Origin: an uncultured Flavobacterium sp.
Lineage (GTDB): Bacteria > Bacteroidota > Bacteroidia > Flavobacteriales > Flavobacteriaceae
Assembly: GCA_947631175.1 (NCBI GenBank)
Contig: CANRKI010000011.1
Span: 1-39,048 of the forward strand
Direction of reading: 5' to 3'
DNA length: 39,048 bases
Part shown: positions 4,655-31,193 of the stretch, one piece after another
Layout of the letters: every line of letters begins with the position of its first letter
How positions within the stretch are numbered: the first letter of the stretch is position 1
Notes under the pieces: model-generated
What the model saw: the letters and a program-made list of their open reading frames with translations, nothing else
The model's database searches: none
Told to the model about the DNA's origin: nothing
Translations under genes and position numbers: made by a program

Positions 4655-5836
4655 ATGATTTATAAATTAATTACTTACAAAAAACTTTTTCTGCTACTTT
4701 TTTTTACTACGCTTTTACAAGCTCAAGTACCAAATTCGTTTTATTTAACCAAAGTAAATTTGGTATCTGCACAAAACATGAATCAAAACCTAAATACTTT
4801 TGAAAGTTTAGGTATAAAATCAGTTGGTACTACAGCCCAAGAAAACACCTATCAGTGGCTTAAAAATCAATACTTAAGTTATGGTTATACTGAAAGTGCT
4901 ATTAGAACCTTTACTTTTACTTACGCTTCGCAAACAAATAAAAATTTAGAAGTCACTAAAATAGGCAGTCGCTTTCCTGATACTTATGTTGTGGTTTGCG
5001 GACATTTTGATACTAAAAACGGTCCAGGAGTTAATGATAACGGAAGCGGAGTTGTATCAATTTTAGAAATTGCTCGCATTTTACAGCAAGTGAACACAGA
5101 TTACTCCGTTCGATTTATTAATTTTTCGGGAGAAGAAGATGGCCTATTAGGTAGTCAGAACTATGTGAATACAGTTGTAAATGCAACTTCGCCTAAAATG
5201 GATATTCGTGTGGTTTTAAACCTTGATGAAATTGGTGGTGTTGCCAATGCTGTTAATAATAAGGTAAATTGTGAGCGTGATTTATCGGCGCCTACAACTA
5301 ATAATGCGGCAAGTAATCAATTTACTCAAGATTTGATGCGTTATGTTTCGGCGTATTCAAATTTAACCCCAGTTTTGGCCCGTGCTTATGCATCGGATTA
5401 TATGCCTTTTCAGGCCAATAATGATGTGATTACTGGTTTGTTTGAGTTTAATGAATCTACGCATCCTCATTCGCCAACCGATGTTTTAGCAAATATGGAT
5501 CCTGCTTATCATTTTCAGGTAACCAAAGCTGCTACGGCTGCTGTTTTACATTTTGCGGTAGCAAATGAAAATTTAGGAGTTGAGTTGCCAACCGATAAAA
5601 ACTTAAAAGTTTACCCAAATCCTGCTAAGGGTAAGGTTTCGATTTTTGTAAACGACACTTCAGATTTGGTGGATGTGAATTTATTTGATTCGAACGGAAG
5701 ATTAATTATTGCGGATAAAATTACGGTACTAAATAATGAAGCTGATTTGTTGCTAGGTAATTTAAAAGCCGGTATTTATATGTTGACAATTATGTCGAAA
5801 ACTATTACTTATCAACAAAAGTTGTTTATAAACTAG
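4655..5836 (+). CDS. Secreted M28 family zinc aminopeptidase with T9SS sorting domain
   Basis: A 393-residue exported metallopeptidase. A signal peptide covers about residues 1-24 (ends LLQAQ). The M28 domain has the two-zinc ligand set in order: His117 (GHFDT), Asp128 (VNDNGSG), Glu161 next to catalytic Glu160 (SGEED), Asp191 (NLDEIGG) and His272 (THPHSP). After about residue 313 comes a type A C-terminal sorting domain (LKVYPNPAKGKVSI up to the end), the signal for the type IX secretion system, so the enzyme is probably surface-attached or released. M28 enzymes of this kind remove N-terminal residues from peptides. The gene stands alone behind its own promoter; downstream is repeat element B. 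Confidence 0.92.
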   Translation: MIYKLITYKKLFLLLFFTTLLQAQVPNSFYLTKVNLVSAQNMNQNLNTFESLGIKSVGTTAQENTYQWLKNQYLSYGYTESAIRTFTFTYASQTNKNLEVTKIGSRFPDTYVVVCGHFDTKNGPGVNDNGSGVVSILEIARILQQVNTDYSVRFINFSGEEDGLLGSQNYVNTVVNATSPKMDIRVVLNLDEIGGVANAVNNKVNCERDLSAPTTNNAASNQFTQDLMRYVSAYSNLTPVLARAYASDYMPFQANNDVITGLFEFNESTHPHSPTDVLANMDPAYHFQVTKAATAAVLHFAVANENLGVELPTDKNLKVYPNPAKGKVSIFVNDTSDLVDVNLFDSNGRLIIADKITVLNNEADLLLGNLKAGIYMLTIMSKTITYQQKLFIN

Positions 5837-5942
5837 TTTTAAGACTTAAGTTATTAACAATTTGTGTTGATAACTGTGTTTAAAACCTATTTTTTGTGGA
5901 TAAGATTGTGTAAAAGCTGTTGATAGTTGTTTTACTGAATTT

Positions 5943-6111
5943 CGCGTTAGGGATAGAAGCGATATCCTTTTTATGTTTTTTAGAGGATTTTTTTTTATCT
6001 TTTCGTGTATTTGAGTTGATTTATTTTCATAAAAAGATAAAGCGGATAGCCCGACCCGAGCTATCCGCTTTTTATGTTTTTTGAGATTTTTTAATGCGAG
6101 GGTAACGCCCT
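5943..6111 (+). repeat. Intergenic repeat element, copy B (complete)
   Basis: The left arm GCGTTAGGGATAGAAGCG plus ATATCCTTTTTATG (to 5975) pairs at a distance with CATAAAAAGATA (6028-6039). The right block AGCGGATAGC...GCTATCCGCT (6041-6069) is a perfect 10-bp hairpin with a T tract, and GCGAGGGTAACGCCC (6096-6110) closes the element. Copy A (24-108) repeats the right half nearly base for base, and the minus-strand element at 18701-18780 shares the ATCCTTTT / AAAAGATAAAGCG stem. It lies exactly between convergent genes, 2 bp before the stop of the HD gene, and can terminate transcription. From memory, similar elements recur in Flavobacterium genomes; this needs a copy count. Confidence 0.75.
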
Positions 6112-18663: not shown

Positions 18664-18700
18664 AATAAGGAGCATAAAATTAGTGCACCAAAATAAACCA

Positions 18701-18780
18701 AGTTCCCGCTTTTCGCTTTATCTTTTGTTTCATTACATTACACAAAAGGATACCGCTACAATCGGGGCTAAAAGCCATCG
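18701..18780 (-). repeat. Intergenic repeat element, copy C
   Basis: Read on the minus strand: AGCCCCGATTGTAGCGGTATCCTTTTGT, a short loop, then ACAAAAGATAAAGCGAAAAGCGGGA. The arms form an imperfect hairpin (18713-18757). The ATCCTTTT / AAAAGATAAAGCG pair is shared with element B at 5943-6111. It fills most of the 166-bp gap between hmgA and hpd. A small GGCT-AAA-AGCC stem plus seven Ts (18766-18787) on the plus strand could weakly terminate hmgA transcripts. Confidence 0.65.
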
Positions 18781-25093: not shown

Positions 25094-27865
25094 ATGAAAA
25101 ACTTCAGAAATTGGGTAAGTTTATGCCTTATGGTATTTACCTCTGTTGCTTTTGCTCAAACAAAAATTACTGGTAAAGTAGTTGACGGTGAGTACTCAGG
25201 TGGACTTCCTGGAGCAAGTATCGCTGTAAAAGGTACTTCAAACGGAGCTACTTCTGACATGGATGGTAGTTTTGAACTAACTACAAATCTTGAATCAGGT
25301 CAAGTGGTAATTTCTTTCATCGGTTACGAAACTAAAACAGTTTCTTTTAAAGCTCAAAACGGTATTGCTAACATTGGTAATGTAACTGTTTCTGCTTCAG
25401 ACAACATGTTAGAAGGAATTGTGATTCAAGGTGTAGCAGACGTTGCTAAAGATCGCAAAACTCCAGTAGCTGTTTCGACTATTAAAGCTGCTGAAATTGT
25501 TGAAAAATTAGGAAACCAAGAATTTCCTGAGATGTTAAACTCTACACCATCGGTTTACGCTACAAAATCTTCTGGTGGTTTTGGTGATTCTAGAATTAAC
25601 ATTCGTGGTTTCGACCAAAAAAACATTGCAGTAATGGTTAACGGTATGCCAGTTAACGACATGGAAAACTCTTCTGTTTATTGGTCTAACTGGGCTGGTT
25701 TATCTGACGTTACTTCTGCAATGCAGGTTCAACGTGGTTTAGGTTCTTCTAAACTTGCTATTTCTTCTGTTGGTGGCACTATCAACATTTTAACAAAATC
25801 ATCAGACATGAAAGCTGGTGGACGTATTTCTGCAGGTCTTGCAAACGATGATTACTTTAAGTCTACTGCTTCTTATAACACAGGTAAATTAGAAAACGGA
25901 TTATCAGCTTCTATCTTATTATCTCACACTATGGGTGATGGTTACGTAGATGGTACTTCTTTTGAAGGATCTAACTACTACGCTGCTGTTGGTTATGAAA
26001 CTAAAAACAAAAAACACGATTTCCAATTAACTTTTACTGGCGCGCCTCAATCTCACAACCAAAGAAATACTTATATTTCTATTGCTGAGGCTCAAGCAGC
26101 TTCTGATAATGGAGATCCAAACATTAAATACAATAAGGATTGGGGTTACTTAAACGGTAAAGAATTTAGCTGGAGACGTAACTATTACCACAAACCAATT
26201 GGTTCTTTCAACTGGAACTATAAAATTAACGAAACTACAAAATTAGCTTCTGTATTCTACGGTTCTTGGGGACGTGGAGGTGGAGGACGTGCTTATGGAC
26301 GTGCTACATATAGAGATGCTAATAACAGAAACGTTACTGTTTATCCTGATGACGCTATCTTTAGAGATGCTAATGGTGTTATGGACTTCAATAAAATTGT
26401 TGCTTGGAACCAAGGTAGTGCTTTTTCTCACAATGGTAACGCACTTACAAACAATACTCCAGGTGTAATGGGATATTCTAATGCAGGTATTGGTACAATT
26501 AACTCTGTTAACTCTCACGACTGGTACGGAGGTATTATCTCTTTAAACAAAAAATTATCTGAGAAATTTACTTTAGATTTTGGTATTGACGCTCGTACAT
26601 ATGTTGGGTACCACTTCGAAAACGTTGCTAATTTCTTAGGAAATAATTCTTACTACGATACTACTCGTCTTGTTGATGGTAGCTCAAGAAATCAATACTT
26701 CTACAATGCATACGGTTCAGACGTATCTTATAATCCTTTTGCTAGCTTAAACGGTAACGATGCGATTAACTATAACAACGATGGTAAAGTAAACTGGTAC
26801 GGTGGTTTTGCTCAGTTAGAATACTCTAACGATAACTTAACTGCTTTCGTACAAGGTGCACTTTCTAACCAAGGTTTCAAACGTATTGACTATATCGTTT
26901 ACGGTCAAGAAATGGAAACTTCTTGGAAAAACATGTTAGGTGGTAACGTTAAAGCTGGTGCTAACTACAACATTGACGAAAATCACAATGTATTCGTAAA
27001 CGGAGGTTGGTATTCTAAACAACCTTTCTTTAATGGTGTTTACTTAAATAACCGTAACGAATTAAACCCGAACTTAAAAAATGAAACTGTTATCGGTTTA
27101 GAAGCTGGATACGGATTCCGTTCAGAAAAATTCAATGCTAACGTTAACGTGTACAGAACTTCTTGGGCTGATAGAGTATTAACAAGATCATCTCAATTCA
27201 CAGTTGGTGGAGAAAACGTTCAAGGTACAGCTAACTTATTTGGTATCGAGCAAATTCACTACGGTGCTGAGGTTGACTTCTTATACCGTCCAACTTCTCG
27301 TTTCGATGTTAAAGGATCTTTCTCTATCGGTGATTACAGATACGGTAAAAACGTTATTGCAACTTACTTAGATCGTGAAACAAACTTACCAATCTTAGAC
27401 GATAACGGTGATATCAAATCAGAAACTTTATACTTAAAAGATGCTAAAGTAGGTGATGCTGCGCAATTAATGGCAAACGTATCTGCTGCATACAAAGTTT
27501 TAGATAGAACTAATCACACAATCAAAGTTGACGCTGGATACCGTTTTGTAGACCAATTATACTCTCAAATCGATGCTTCTAAAATGAATACAGTAGATAA
27601 TAAAGGCGCTTTAGAATTACCATCTTACAACTTATTCGATGCTGGTGCAACGTACACAATGAGAGTTGGTAAAGAAAAAGCAAACTCAGTTAACGTTCGT
27701 TTCAACTTAAACAACGTTTTCAATACAATTTACATTGCTGATGGTATGACTGCTCAACACGTTGACGCTAACACTACATCAACTTGGAAAGGTATTGATA
27801 CTCGTAACAACGTATGGTTTGGTGCAGGTAGAACTTGGAACTTTACATTATCATACAACTTCTAA
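25094..27865 (+). CDS. TonB-dependent receptor with CarboxypepD_reg-like domain
   Basis: A 923-residue outer-membrane transporter. It has a signal peptide (1-22, VAFAQ), a CarboxypepD_reg-like beta-sandwich (about 23-105; KITGKVVDGEYSGGLPGASIAVKGT), a plug (about 115-240; RINIRGFDQKNIAVMVNGMPVNDME and VQRGLGSSKLAISSVGGTINI) and a large barrel ending WNFTLSYNF. It lacks a SusD partner downstream, so it is not a classical Sus pair; the substrate is unknown. Codon choice differs from neighbours (many AAC, TCT, GCT, GGT, CGT), as in highly expressed flavobacterial genes, suggesting an abundant outer-membrane protein. It is followed by a bidirectional terminator. Confidence 0.9.
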   Translation: MKNFRNWVSLCLMVFTSVAFAQTKITGKVVDGEYSGGLPGASIAVKGTSNGATSDMDGSFELTTNLESGQVVISFIGYETKTVSFKAQNGIANIGNVTVSASDNMLEGIVIQGVADVAKDRKTPVAVSTIKAAEIVEKLGNQEFPEMLNSTPSVYATKSSGGFGDSRINIRGFDQKNIAVMVNGMPVNDMENSSVYWSNWAGLSDVTSAMQVQRGLGSSKLAISSVGGTINILTKSSDMKAGGRISAGLANDDYFKSTASYNTGKLENGLSASILLSHTMGDGYVDGTSFEGSNYYAAVGYETKNKKHDFQLTFTGAPQSHNQRNTYISIAEAQAASDNGDPNIKYNKDWGYLNGKEFSWRRNYYHKPIGSFNWNYKINETTKLASVFYGSWGRGGGGRAYGRATYRDANNRNVTVYPDDAIFRDANGVMDFNKIVAWNQGSAFSHNGNALTNNTPGVMGYSNAGIGTINSVNSHDWYGGIISLNKKLSEKFTLDFGIDARTYVGYHFENVANFLGNNSYYDTTRLVDGSSRNQYFYNAYGSDVSYNPFASLNGNDAINYNNDGKVNWYGGFAQLEYSNDNLTAFVQGALSNQGFKRIDYIVYGQEMETSWKNMLGGNVKAGANYNIDENHNVFVNGGWYSKQPFFNGVYLNNRNELNPNLKNETVIGLEAGYGFRSEKFNANVNVYRTSWADRVLTRSSQFTVGGENVQGTANLFGIEQIHYGAEVDFLYRPTSRFDVKGSFSIGDYRYGKNVIATYLDRETNLPILDDNGDIKSETLYLKDAKVGDAAQLMANVSAAYKVLDRTNHTIKVDAGYRFVDQLYSQIDASKMNTVDNKGALELPSYNLFDAGATYTMRVGKEKANSVNVRFNLNNVFNTIYIADGMTAQHVDANTTSTWKGIDTRNNVWFGAGRTWNFTLSYNF

Positions 27866-28181: not shown

Positions 28182-29767
28182 CTAACTGATCAATTTTTGG
28201 GTTAAAATTTTATGAACTTCTGAAAACTGTTCTTGATTAACTAAAAGGATAAGTTTTTTAAGCGTTGTACATTATCATGTATACTTTCATTTGTTGTTTT
28301 ATATGATAACACAGTTTTTTATTAGTAAATAGAGTCTATGTAAAAAAAATTTTTCATCTTCTGTCCATTTTTCCGATTCACCTATAATTTGTTTTTTCCA
28401 GGCCTCAAACGAAGCCCTTGGTGAGTATGCGAGCGCATTACATTCGATCGAGAATTCTATGAATTTTTTAGGTTCACCAGCCCATATTTCATCTTTTATA
28501 CTTTGCGGTCTAAAAAAGTAAATACTGTTTAAGCCATACTTGTCAAAATTAATTCGTGCAATTCCAGATATATTTTCTGTGTCAATAAAAAAGTTGTTTT
28601 TAATGTTTGAATATTCGTGTGTAGTAAAAATTGTATTGCTATCATATAGACTATCAATATCTTCTTTTATTTGGTAAAAATCATCATCTTTTGGCGTTTC
28701 ACCAATTCTAATGATATCGGCACCAAATGATATGATTAATCCACTAGCAGATAGTACTTTTAAAAAGTTATTTCCGTATTTACCTAAAGTGTATTGCGTG
28801 CTTTTACTACTTATTATACTCCCTTTTAATTCATTTTCAAAATCTTTTAGCTGTATCTCATTTGTTAATTTTGATATGGCTTTTTTGTTCTCAAAATGTT
28901 TTGATATTGGATCGATAATGTAATTACAAAGTTTACGTTGTTGGATTGTGATATATTTTTTTGCTTGATGCTGACAGCAAACCAATCCCCATAATTTATT
29001 ATCAATAATGATCGAGAAGCTAGCACTAGCTGTTAAGTTAGTATTTTTTAAATATTGTAGGTGATTGGGAGACATCGCTCTTATTTTTGATTTAGACAGA
29101 TTAATTTCAGAGGGTTTTAATCCTATAATCTGAATAGTTTCTTCAAAAATATCAGGAGTTTGTCTATCTAAATTTGTAGTAAATAATTTTCTCGCTTGTT
29201 TAGGAATGTCAAATTCTGGATGCCTATATCCTAATGCCGAGGGTAAATTTCCTTTAATACTTTCCGCAAGAACAATTCCAGTTTCATCTTGTAGGAATTG
29301 GTAAATCATTAGGCGGTCAGAATTTATAATTTGATATATTTTATCGGCTAGTGATTGCCATATGTTTTCAGAATTATCAATTTCGGATTTTATTTCTTCA
29401 AATGTAAATATATCTAAATCAACTTTTTCATTTTCTTCAAATTCTAAGAAAATTTTATCGCTATCTAAGTAAACAGATATCTGTAGTCAATATCGTTAAT
29501 ATTAATATGATAATAATCGATTTTATTATTTAAATGATTTTCCTCTAATGTTAAAATGTTACTATTTATTTTAGTGTCAATTAAATTTTCGGAATATATT
29601 AAATCTTTTTTTAATAAGTTTTTCGATATCTCGTCAAATAATTTACCAGAATTTTCGCTAACAGCAATACACTCTCCTTTGGTATTTAATACTAGTAGGT
29701 AACCAAAAGGTTTAATTTTCCACAAAGATGGATTAATTCATCTTCACAATTAAAAATTTGTATACAT
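28182..29767 (-). pseudogene. Degraded bacteriophytochrome (PAS-GAF-PHY, no kinase)
   Basis: Track ORFs 29465-29725 and 28299-29309 are pieces of one gene. Upstream of the first, another frame reads NCEDELIHLCGK, the biliverdin-Cys motif (C-x-x-E-x-I-H), which joins KIKPFGYLLVLN (PAS) if one A is added to GGAAAATT. A second shift at TACAGATAT links DIDY to QISVYLDSDKIFLEFEE. The next 50 codons are open and run into the GAF domain: PEFDIP, SPNHLQYL, LWGLVCCQHQ. PHY signatures follow: IWAGEP and PRASFEAWK. After KNCVII, two further shifts restore YKTTNESIHDNVQR and LKKLILLVNQEQFSEV, ending at 28182. There is no histidine kinase domain. A T-run shift separates ATG 29767 from the Cys motif. About five lesions in 1.6 kb, while neighbours are intact, point to a true pseudogene. 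Confidence 0.88.
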
Positions 29768-29840: not shown

Positions 29841-31193
29841 CTAAAATCCTAAAATTAATTTAGCGATAGAAAAATAGATTAATAATCCAAAAATGTCGTT
29901 ACTAGTGGTGATAAACGGACCCGTTGCTATTGCTGGATCTATGTTGTAACGGTGTAGCATTATAGGTACAAATGTACCAACTAAACTGGCTAAAATCATC
30001 ACGCTGATTAATGCTATAACAATGGTGGTCGATACTTCGTACGAGGTACCCATATAAAAATGTGTGCCTAATAAAAGTAAGATTGCTAGTACAGAACTGT
30101 TTAATAAGGCAAGCAGCATCTCTTTACCTAAACGACGCCATAGTGAGCCAGATAGGCTGTTATTTGCTAAACCTTGTACAATAATTGCAGACGATTGTAC
30201 ACCAACGTTTCCAGCCATTGCCGCTACAAGTGGTGTGAAGAAAAATAAGGTTGCGTATTTTTCCATGGCACTGCTAAAGTTTTCGGAAATGTTTACGGCT
30301 ACAAAACTACCACCTAAGGCAAGTAATAACCACGGAAGTCGCGCTTTTGTAAGTTCCCATATACTATCATCAGCCTCAACGTCGTGCGAGATACCAGCTG
30401 CTAATTGGTAGTCACGATCGGCCTCTTCTTTAATTACGTCAACGATATCGTCAATGGTGATGCGACCAACTAATCGACCGGTTTCGTCGATTACAGGAAT
30501 GGCCTCGAGGTCGTATTTTTGCATGATACGTGCGACTTCAACATCCTCGGTATCAACTTTTACAGAGTCCACTTTTGGTATAAAAATGTCTTTAATCTGT
30601 GTGGTTGTGGATGATGTGATAAGGTCTTTTAAGGAAAGTCTTCCTTTTAAACGATCTTCGTCATCGACTACGTAAATAGAATGAACGCGTGAAACGTTTT
30701 CGGCTTGTTTTCTAATTTCTTGAATACAAGTTAATACATTCCAGTTTTCGTTAACTTTAATGTATTCCTTAGCCATTAACCCTCCGGCGGTATCTTCGTC
30801 GTAGCGTAATAACTCAACAATATCTTTTGCGTGTTCAAAATCTTCAAGCTCCGAAATTACCTCGTCTTTAATTTCTTGGGGTAATTCAGCAATGATGTCT
30901 ACCGCGTCATCGGTATCCATTTCGTCTAACTCTTCAGCAATTTCTTTAGCCGAAAGGTTGTTTAAGATTTTTTCTCGAACTTCATCATCAAGTTCTAATA
31001 GAATTTCCGAACTAATACCAGAATCAAGGATTTTAAACAGATAGCCTGCATCTTCTCCTTTTAACTCGTTCATTAATTCGGCAATATCAGCAAAGTGAAT
31101 ATCCTCGAGTTTACGAATAATTTCGGTCTCGTTTTTATTAGCAATTAAGCTTTCAATCTCTTGGATAAATTCGTTACTGATTTTAAATTCCAT
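29841..31193 (-). CDS. mgtE: Magnesium transporter MgtE
   Basis: A 450-residue Mg2+ channel, the same length as the Thermus protein of known structure. It has a cytoplasmic N domain of helical repeats (about 1-130; [20 protein letters not shown]), a CBS pair (about 135-255; [20 protein letters not shown] and [21 protein letters not shown]) that senses Mg2+, and five membrane helices (about 280-450). The pore region [13 protein letters not shown] and the selectivity segment [18 protein letters not shown] with its Asp are intact. The ATG overlaps the rsmA stop by 11 bp, so the two genes are coupled. No Mg2+ riboswitch is seen; the gene is downstream in an operon. Confidence 0.96.

Follow-up and report, generated by a model that had tools for sequence, protein, structure and literature searches.

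Remains of a bacteriophytochrome–heme oxygenase operon, probably decayed recently along with a second operon, in an uncultured Flavobacterium

The window, a stretch of 39,048 nucleotides from an uncultured Flavobacterium sp. (contig CANRKI010000011.1), appears to hold the remains of a bacteriophytochrome–heme oxygenase operon that recently decayed along with a second such operon on another contig. We give this reading, which rests on sequence comparisons, a probability of about 0.9. The ancestral arrangement would have been the one still seen in a related genome of the genus (G196), with mgtE, an intact phytochrome (PAS-GAF-PHY-kinase) and a heme oxygenase gene. In the lineage of the window, the orthologous phytochrome is without its start frame, its reading frame is broken towards the 5′ end and its kinase half is gone, and the heme oxygenase gene has probably been cut to its first ~36 codons.

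The phytochrome remnant and its intact counterpart

Direct reading of the frames revealed that positions 29767-28299 of the minus strand encode PAS, GAF and PHY regions spread over three frames. The remnant is bounded by mgtE and by a convergent TonB-dependent-receptor-like gene (25094-27865). The features of the locus are as follows.

29841-31193, minus strand: mgtE, the intact upstream syntenic marker (91% identical to G196 mgtE, shared gene order)
29750-29767, minus strand: likely site of the original start; the frame opened by the ATG at 29767 stops at TAA 29752-29750 (compared with the G196 start, MTPTILNCEDE)
29713-29757, minus strand: N-terminal PAS piece, IFNCEDELIHLCGKL, with a biliverdin-binding-type Cys (73% identity to G196 over 15 residues)
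29468-29737, minus strand: second PAS piece, in a different frame (PAS_2, E = 0.0089; 42% identity to G196)
28302-29486, minus strand: open stretch of 395 codons (P0001) with the end of PAS, GAF and PHY (PHY, E = 7.6e-22; 55% identity to G196)
28299-28301, minus strand: TAA at the expected entry to the histidine-kinase half, which is absent (the G196 alignment stops at residue 489 of 728)
28212-28310, minus strand: probably what is left of a heme oxygenase gene, its first ~36 codons, with one frame change inside (frameshift-aware scores against the heme oxygenases of G196 and of contig C121)
27945-28017, no strand assigned: dispersed palindromic repeat adjoining the synteny breakpoint (~20 further copies in the genome, 73-83% identity, with a conserved core)

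The N-terminal piece retains the cysteine predicted to attach biliverdin, in an NCEDE motif that is present in both the window and G196. This frame (29778-29695) contains no in-frame ATG, GTG or TTG, and the ATG at 29767 belongs to another frame. Both observations back the claim, made in an earlier sequence-only reading, of a break at the T5 run near 29755. When the pieces were compared with Pfam, PHY scored above the cut-off, and GAF (E = 0.00038) and PAS_2 both fell just under it. From these matches, the ancestral gene of the window would have carried the PAS-GAF-PHY photosensory core.

Four hundred genomes drawn from the genus were searched for phytochrome relatives. Such relatives were present in 71 of them, and nearly all were ~28-34% identical to the window protein. 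The G196 phytochrome (L044 9136-11319) is 55% identical, is open across 728 residues with PAS-GAF-PHY-kinase order, and has PAS, GAF and PHY all above the Pfam cut-off. Over a 20-kb neighbourhood, G196 and the window share the order serS, TPR, DUF4286-like (103 residues), rsmA, mgtE, phytochrome. Furthermore, a maximum-likelihood tree groups the window copy and G196 as sisters (support 99/89), with the C121 copy outside. On the basis of the shared gene order, the identity and the tree grouping, we consider the window remnant to be orthologous to the intact G196 gene. A second draw from the genus, searched for further orthologues, yielded G196 alone. Nine further close species (mgtE 86-89% identical) had no match in the phytochrome search, and they carry other genes downstream of mgtE wherever that region could be read. 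In G196 itself, serS is split into two overlapping frames (L044 3415-4275 and 4166-4696) and a TAA interrupts the reading frame of a peptidase match; this single-contig assembly may have indel errors of its own.

In a frameshift-aware alignment the pieces line up, frame by frame, with the intact G196 protein. Frame changes of the one-base type were located at ~29709 and ~29482, and the match ends at residue 489, the kinase half of the window phytochrome being missing. The reading frame is broken relative to an intact orthologue at the same locus, as in a pseudogene. The proposal of a broken phytochrome with its pieces in different frames was confirmed by direct frame reading, by Pfam and by this alignment. 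A further break, proposed near 28303, coincides with the end of PHY; no kinase domain follows it, and the phytochrome probably does not continue from this point. Two of the pieces do appear as listed ORFs, as would be expected if the locus consisted of separate, intact small genes, but the intact relatives are single genes of ~730-790 residues and the pieces lie in consecutive frames, ordered as in one protein. We regard the probability of separate genes as negligible.

The tail of the locus and the end of synteny

The phytochrome had been proposed to extend into the tail beyond the TAA, through a break at the A6 run near 28260. A frame change is indeed present there, but it lies inside a probable heme oxygenase remnant, and this part is unlikely to belong to the phytochrome. 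The tail (28310-28212) scores 42 against each of the two close heme oxygenases (G196 and C121), both alignments stop at residue 36, and the scores were reached by only 2/300 (G196) and 1/300 (C121) dinucleotide shuffles. The tail also occupies the position that heme oxygenase has in the G196 operon. Against a profile of the family's more distant members the match was weak (17/485 for the first piece, the second piece being unsupported), and for this reason we call the assignment only probable. The tail is probably the start of a heme oxygenase gene, most of which was lost. Positions 28310-28185 were also tried as kinase, and this candidate was rejected, since the kinase-domain scores were equalled by 56/300 and 63/300 shuffles.

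Beyond the phytochrome, the G196 operon continues with heme oxygenase and then a serA-like gene. Synteny between G196 and the window breaks beyond the tail (window 28185-27866). To learn whether the remainder of the operon had simply been relocated, we searched the window's own genome for the serA-like gene, and no match was found at 1e-30. In a more distant species (L057), a serA-like gene lies directly after mgtE.

The repeat adjoining the breakpoint, judged from its sequence, looks like a REP-type element. It is ~70-100 bp long with a palindromic core, GGGCTGTACGCACTCGCT...GAGCTCAAACAA.TGCT.C.ATC.CTAACGC, and the arms of its inner stem covary (TTGT/ACAA, TTTT/AAAA and GTAGC/GCTAC). No RNA family was detected with Rfam at the phytochrome locus. 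Elsewhere in the window, two Flavo-1 RNA (RF01705) matches exceeded the gathering score, at 18698-18773 on the minus strand and 5939-6060 on the plus strand.

The second operon and the nature and age of the decay

The source genome is a draft of 2.86 Mb in 233 contigs (100% complete, 4.4% contamination). Its one other phytochrome lies on contig C121 and is followed by the genome's only recognised heme oxygenase; both genes are broken. In the coordinates of locus L005, the phytochrome carries a nonsense codon at 2614 and frame changes at ~3313 and ~3936, and an NC motif stands just before its stop codon. The ATP-binding G boxes of its kinase have been lost through substitution. The heme oxygenase gene (4740-5298) has its frame shifted by an exact 16-bp tandem duplication near 5056-5092, a lesion typical of slippage. 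A mutase encoded on C121 is 96% identical to that of G196, and from this we take the contig to come from the same kind of organism; another of its genes is 88% identical. No phytochrome follows that mutase in G196. The C121 operon is the older of the two. In the draft genome neither a phytochrome nor a heme oxygenase turned up whole; an assembly gap could hide another copy.

Artefacts of sequencing, assembly or base calling, in genes that are intact in the organism, could in principle produce breaks of this kind: several lesions are single-base frame changes, one of them in a T5 run, and the assembly is a draft. We consider this explanation very unlikely. By count of the ORF list, 27 ORFs of the window are single and unbroken, and most of the 19 that were scanned with Pfam matched over whole domains; the earlier argument from about 30 intact neighbours stands as to their intactness, with the number corrected to 27. 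Every lesion seen lies in a phytochrome or a heme oxygenase gene, on one or the other of two contigs. The lesions include a wholly missing kinase half in the window copy and, on C121, a substitution-type nonsense codon, the 16-bp duplication and motifs erased by substitution, which makes base-calling error improbable, as several of these could not arise in that way. General sequencing error, already doubted from the sequence alone, remains an unlikely cause, and decay appears far likelier than artefact.

The central 395 codons contain no stop, against ~34 expected in random codons of the same composition. In a Tajima relative-rate test of this frame, unique amino-acid changes numbered 42 in the window and 33 in G196 (p = 0.30), so that a substitution excess indicative of relaxed selection was not significant. 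Private losses at genus-conserved columns (five in the window, one in G196) are suggestive only. Since the central frame is stop-free and the rate test non-significant, the decay would be young relative to the divergence from G196, and a recent loss fits these sequences. The recent loss of red/far-red sensing that had been proposed gains support from the intact syntenic orthologue in the sister genome, and from the breakage of the second operon and of the sole heme oxygenase; its "recent" part is compatible with both results on the central frame.

The lack of stops could also be read as a sign that the central codons are still a gene, namely one for a truncated GAF-PHY protein that stayed under selection once PAS and kinase were gone. 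All three small lesions fall within the first fifth of the remnant (noticed afterwards and of little weight), and the central frame offers an internal ATG at 29309. However, a protein started at this ATG would lack some of GAF as well as the PAS with the Cys required for biliverdin binding, the genome has no whole heme oxygenase, and recent decay predicts the same absence of stops. A surviving truncated gene is therefore extremely unlikely in our view, and recent decay is the reading we retain.

A divergent phytochrome clade and the loss of its pathway

A long stem (2.85) separates the clade formed by the window, C121 and G196 copies from the ordinary phytochromes of the genus, with which identity is only ~28-34%. 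The ordinary phytochromes are likewise coupled with heme oxygenase, which was also counted in 71 of the 400 genomes, a set almost identical to that with a phytochrome. A search of the family for the origin of the divergent clade found nothing closer than ~31%. With bacteriophytochrome histidine kinases (PDB 9rcc and 3c2w), G196 shares the PAS-GAF-PHY-HK domain order, and the common features are the Cys in the N-terminal NCE motif, DIP, SPxH and PRxSF in the PHY tongue. Unlike these proteins, the window copy is without start frame and kinase. Across the clade, HIPG carries Cys instead of Pro and GLHYP carries Arg instead of His, and the kinase alignment shows no H-box histidine.

The position of the H-box histidine in G196 and C121 is, by alignment, an Asn (H518N), with HATPase_c present; the ATPase domain of G196 keeps its G boxes. 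A canonical kinase with the H-box histidine was found in none of the three copies, the kinase being absent in the window. A C-terminal histidine kinase with this residue is common, not universal, in phytochromes. We tentatively suggest, at somewhat less than even odds, that the lost system was a divergent phytochrome, paired with heme oxygenase, which had an ATPase domain without the phospho-acceptor histidine and signalled by another route.

Heme oxygenase is established as the enzyme that produces the biliverdin of bacterial phytochromes from heme (PMC4422448). With heme oxygenase lost, biliverdin would be absent, and without a complete sensor protein a red/far-red response through this system would be absent as well. 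Selection would have been lifted recently, and the two copies would have decayed together. In a genome that has neither a whole phytochrome nor a whole heme oxygenase the pathway cannot run, unless the assembly missed a copy; as judged from gene content, we infer that it was lost in this lineage.

The event is an ordinary, known kind of gene decay. It resembles other decayed bacterial operons and pseudogenes in its frameshifts, nonsense codon, deletion, tandem duplication and intact sister orthologue, and differs from them in that both paralogous operons have decayed along with the pigment enzyme. Among the papers covered by a literature search, none combined bacteriophytochrome, pseudogene and heme oxygenase. 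Two features appear mildly new: the pigment enzyme and both phytochrome copies were lost jointly, and there is a divergent clade seemingly without the phospho-acceptor histidine. General knowledge of phytochromes is unchanged. The locus would represent a natural case of light-sensing loss caught early, in which the intact sister at the same locus allows comparison, and it would be one identifiable event contributing to the patchy distribution of phytochromes in the genus.
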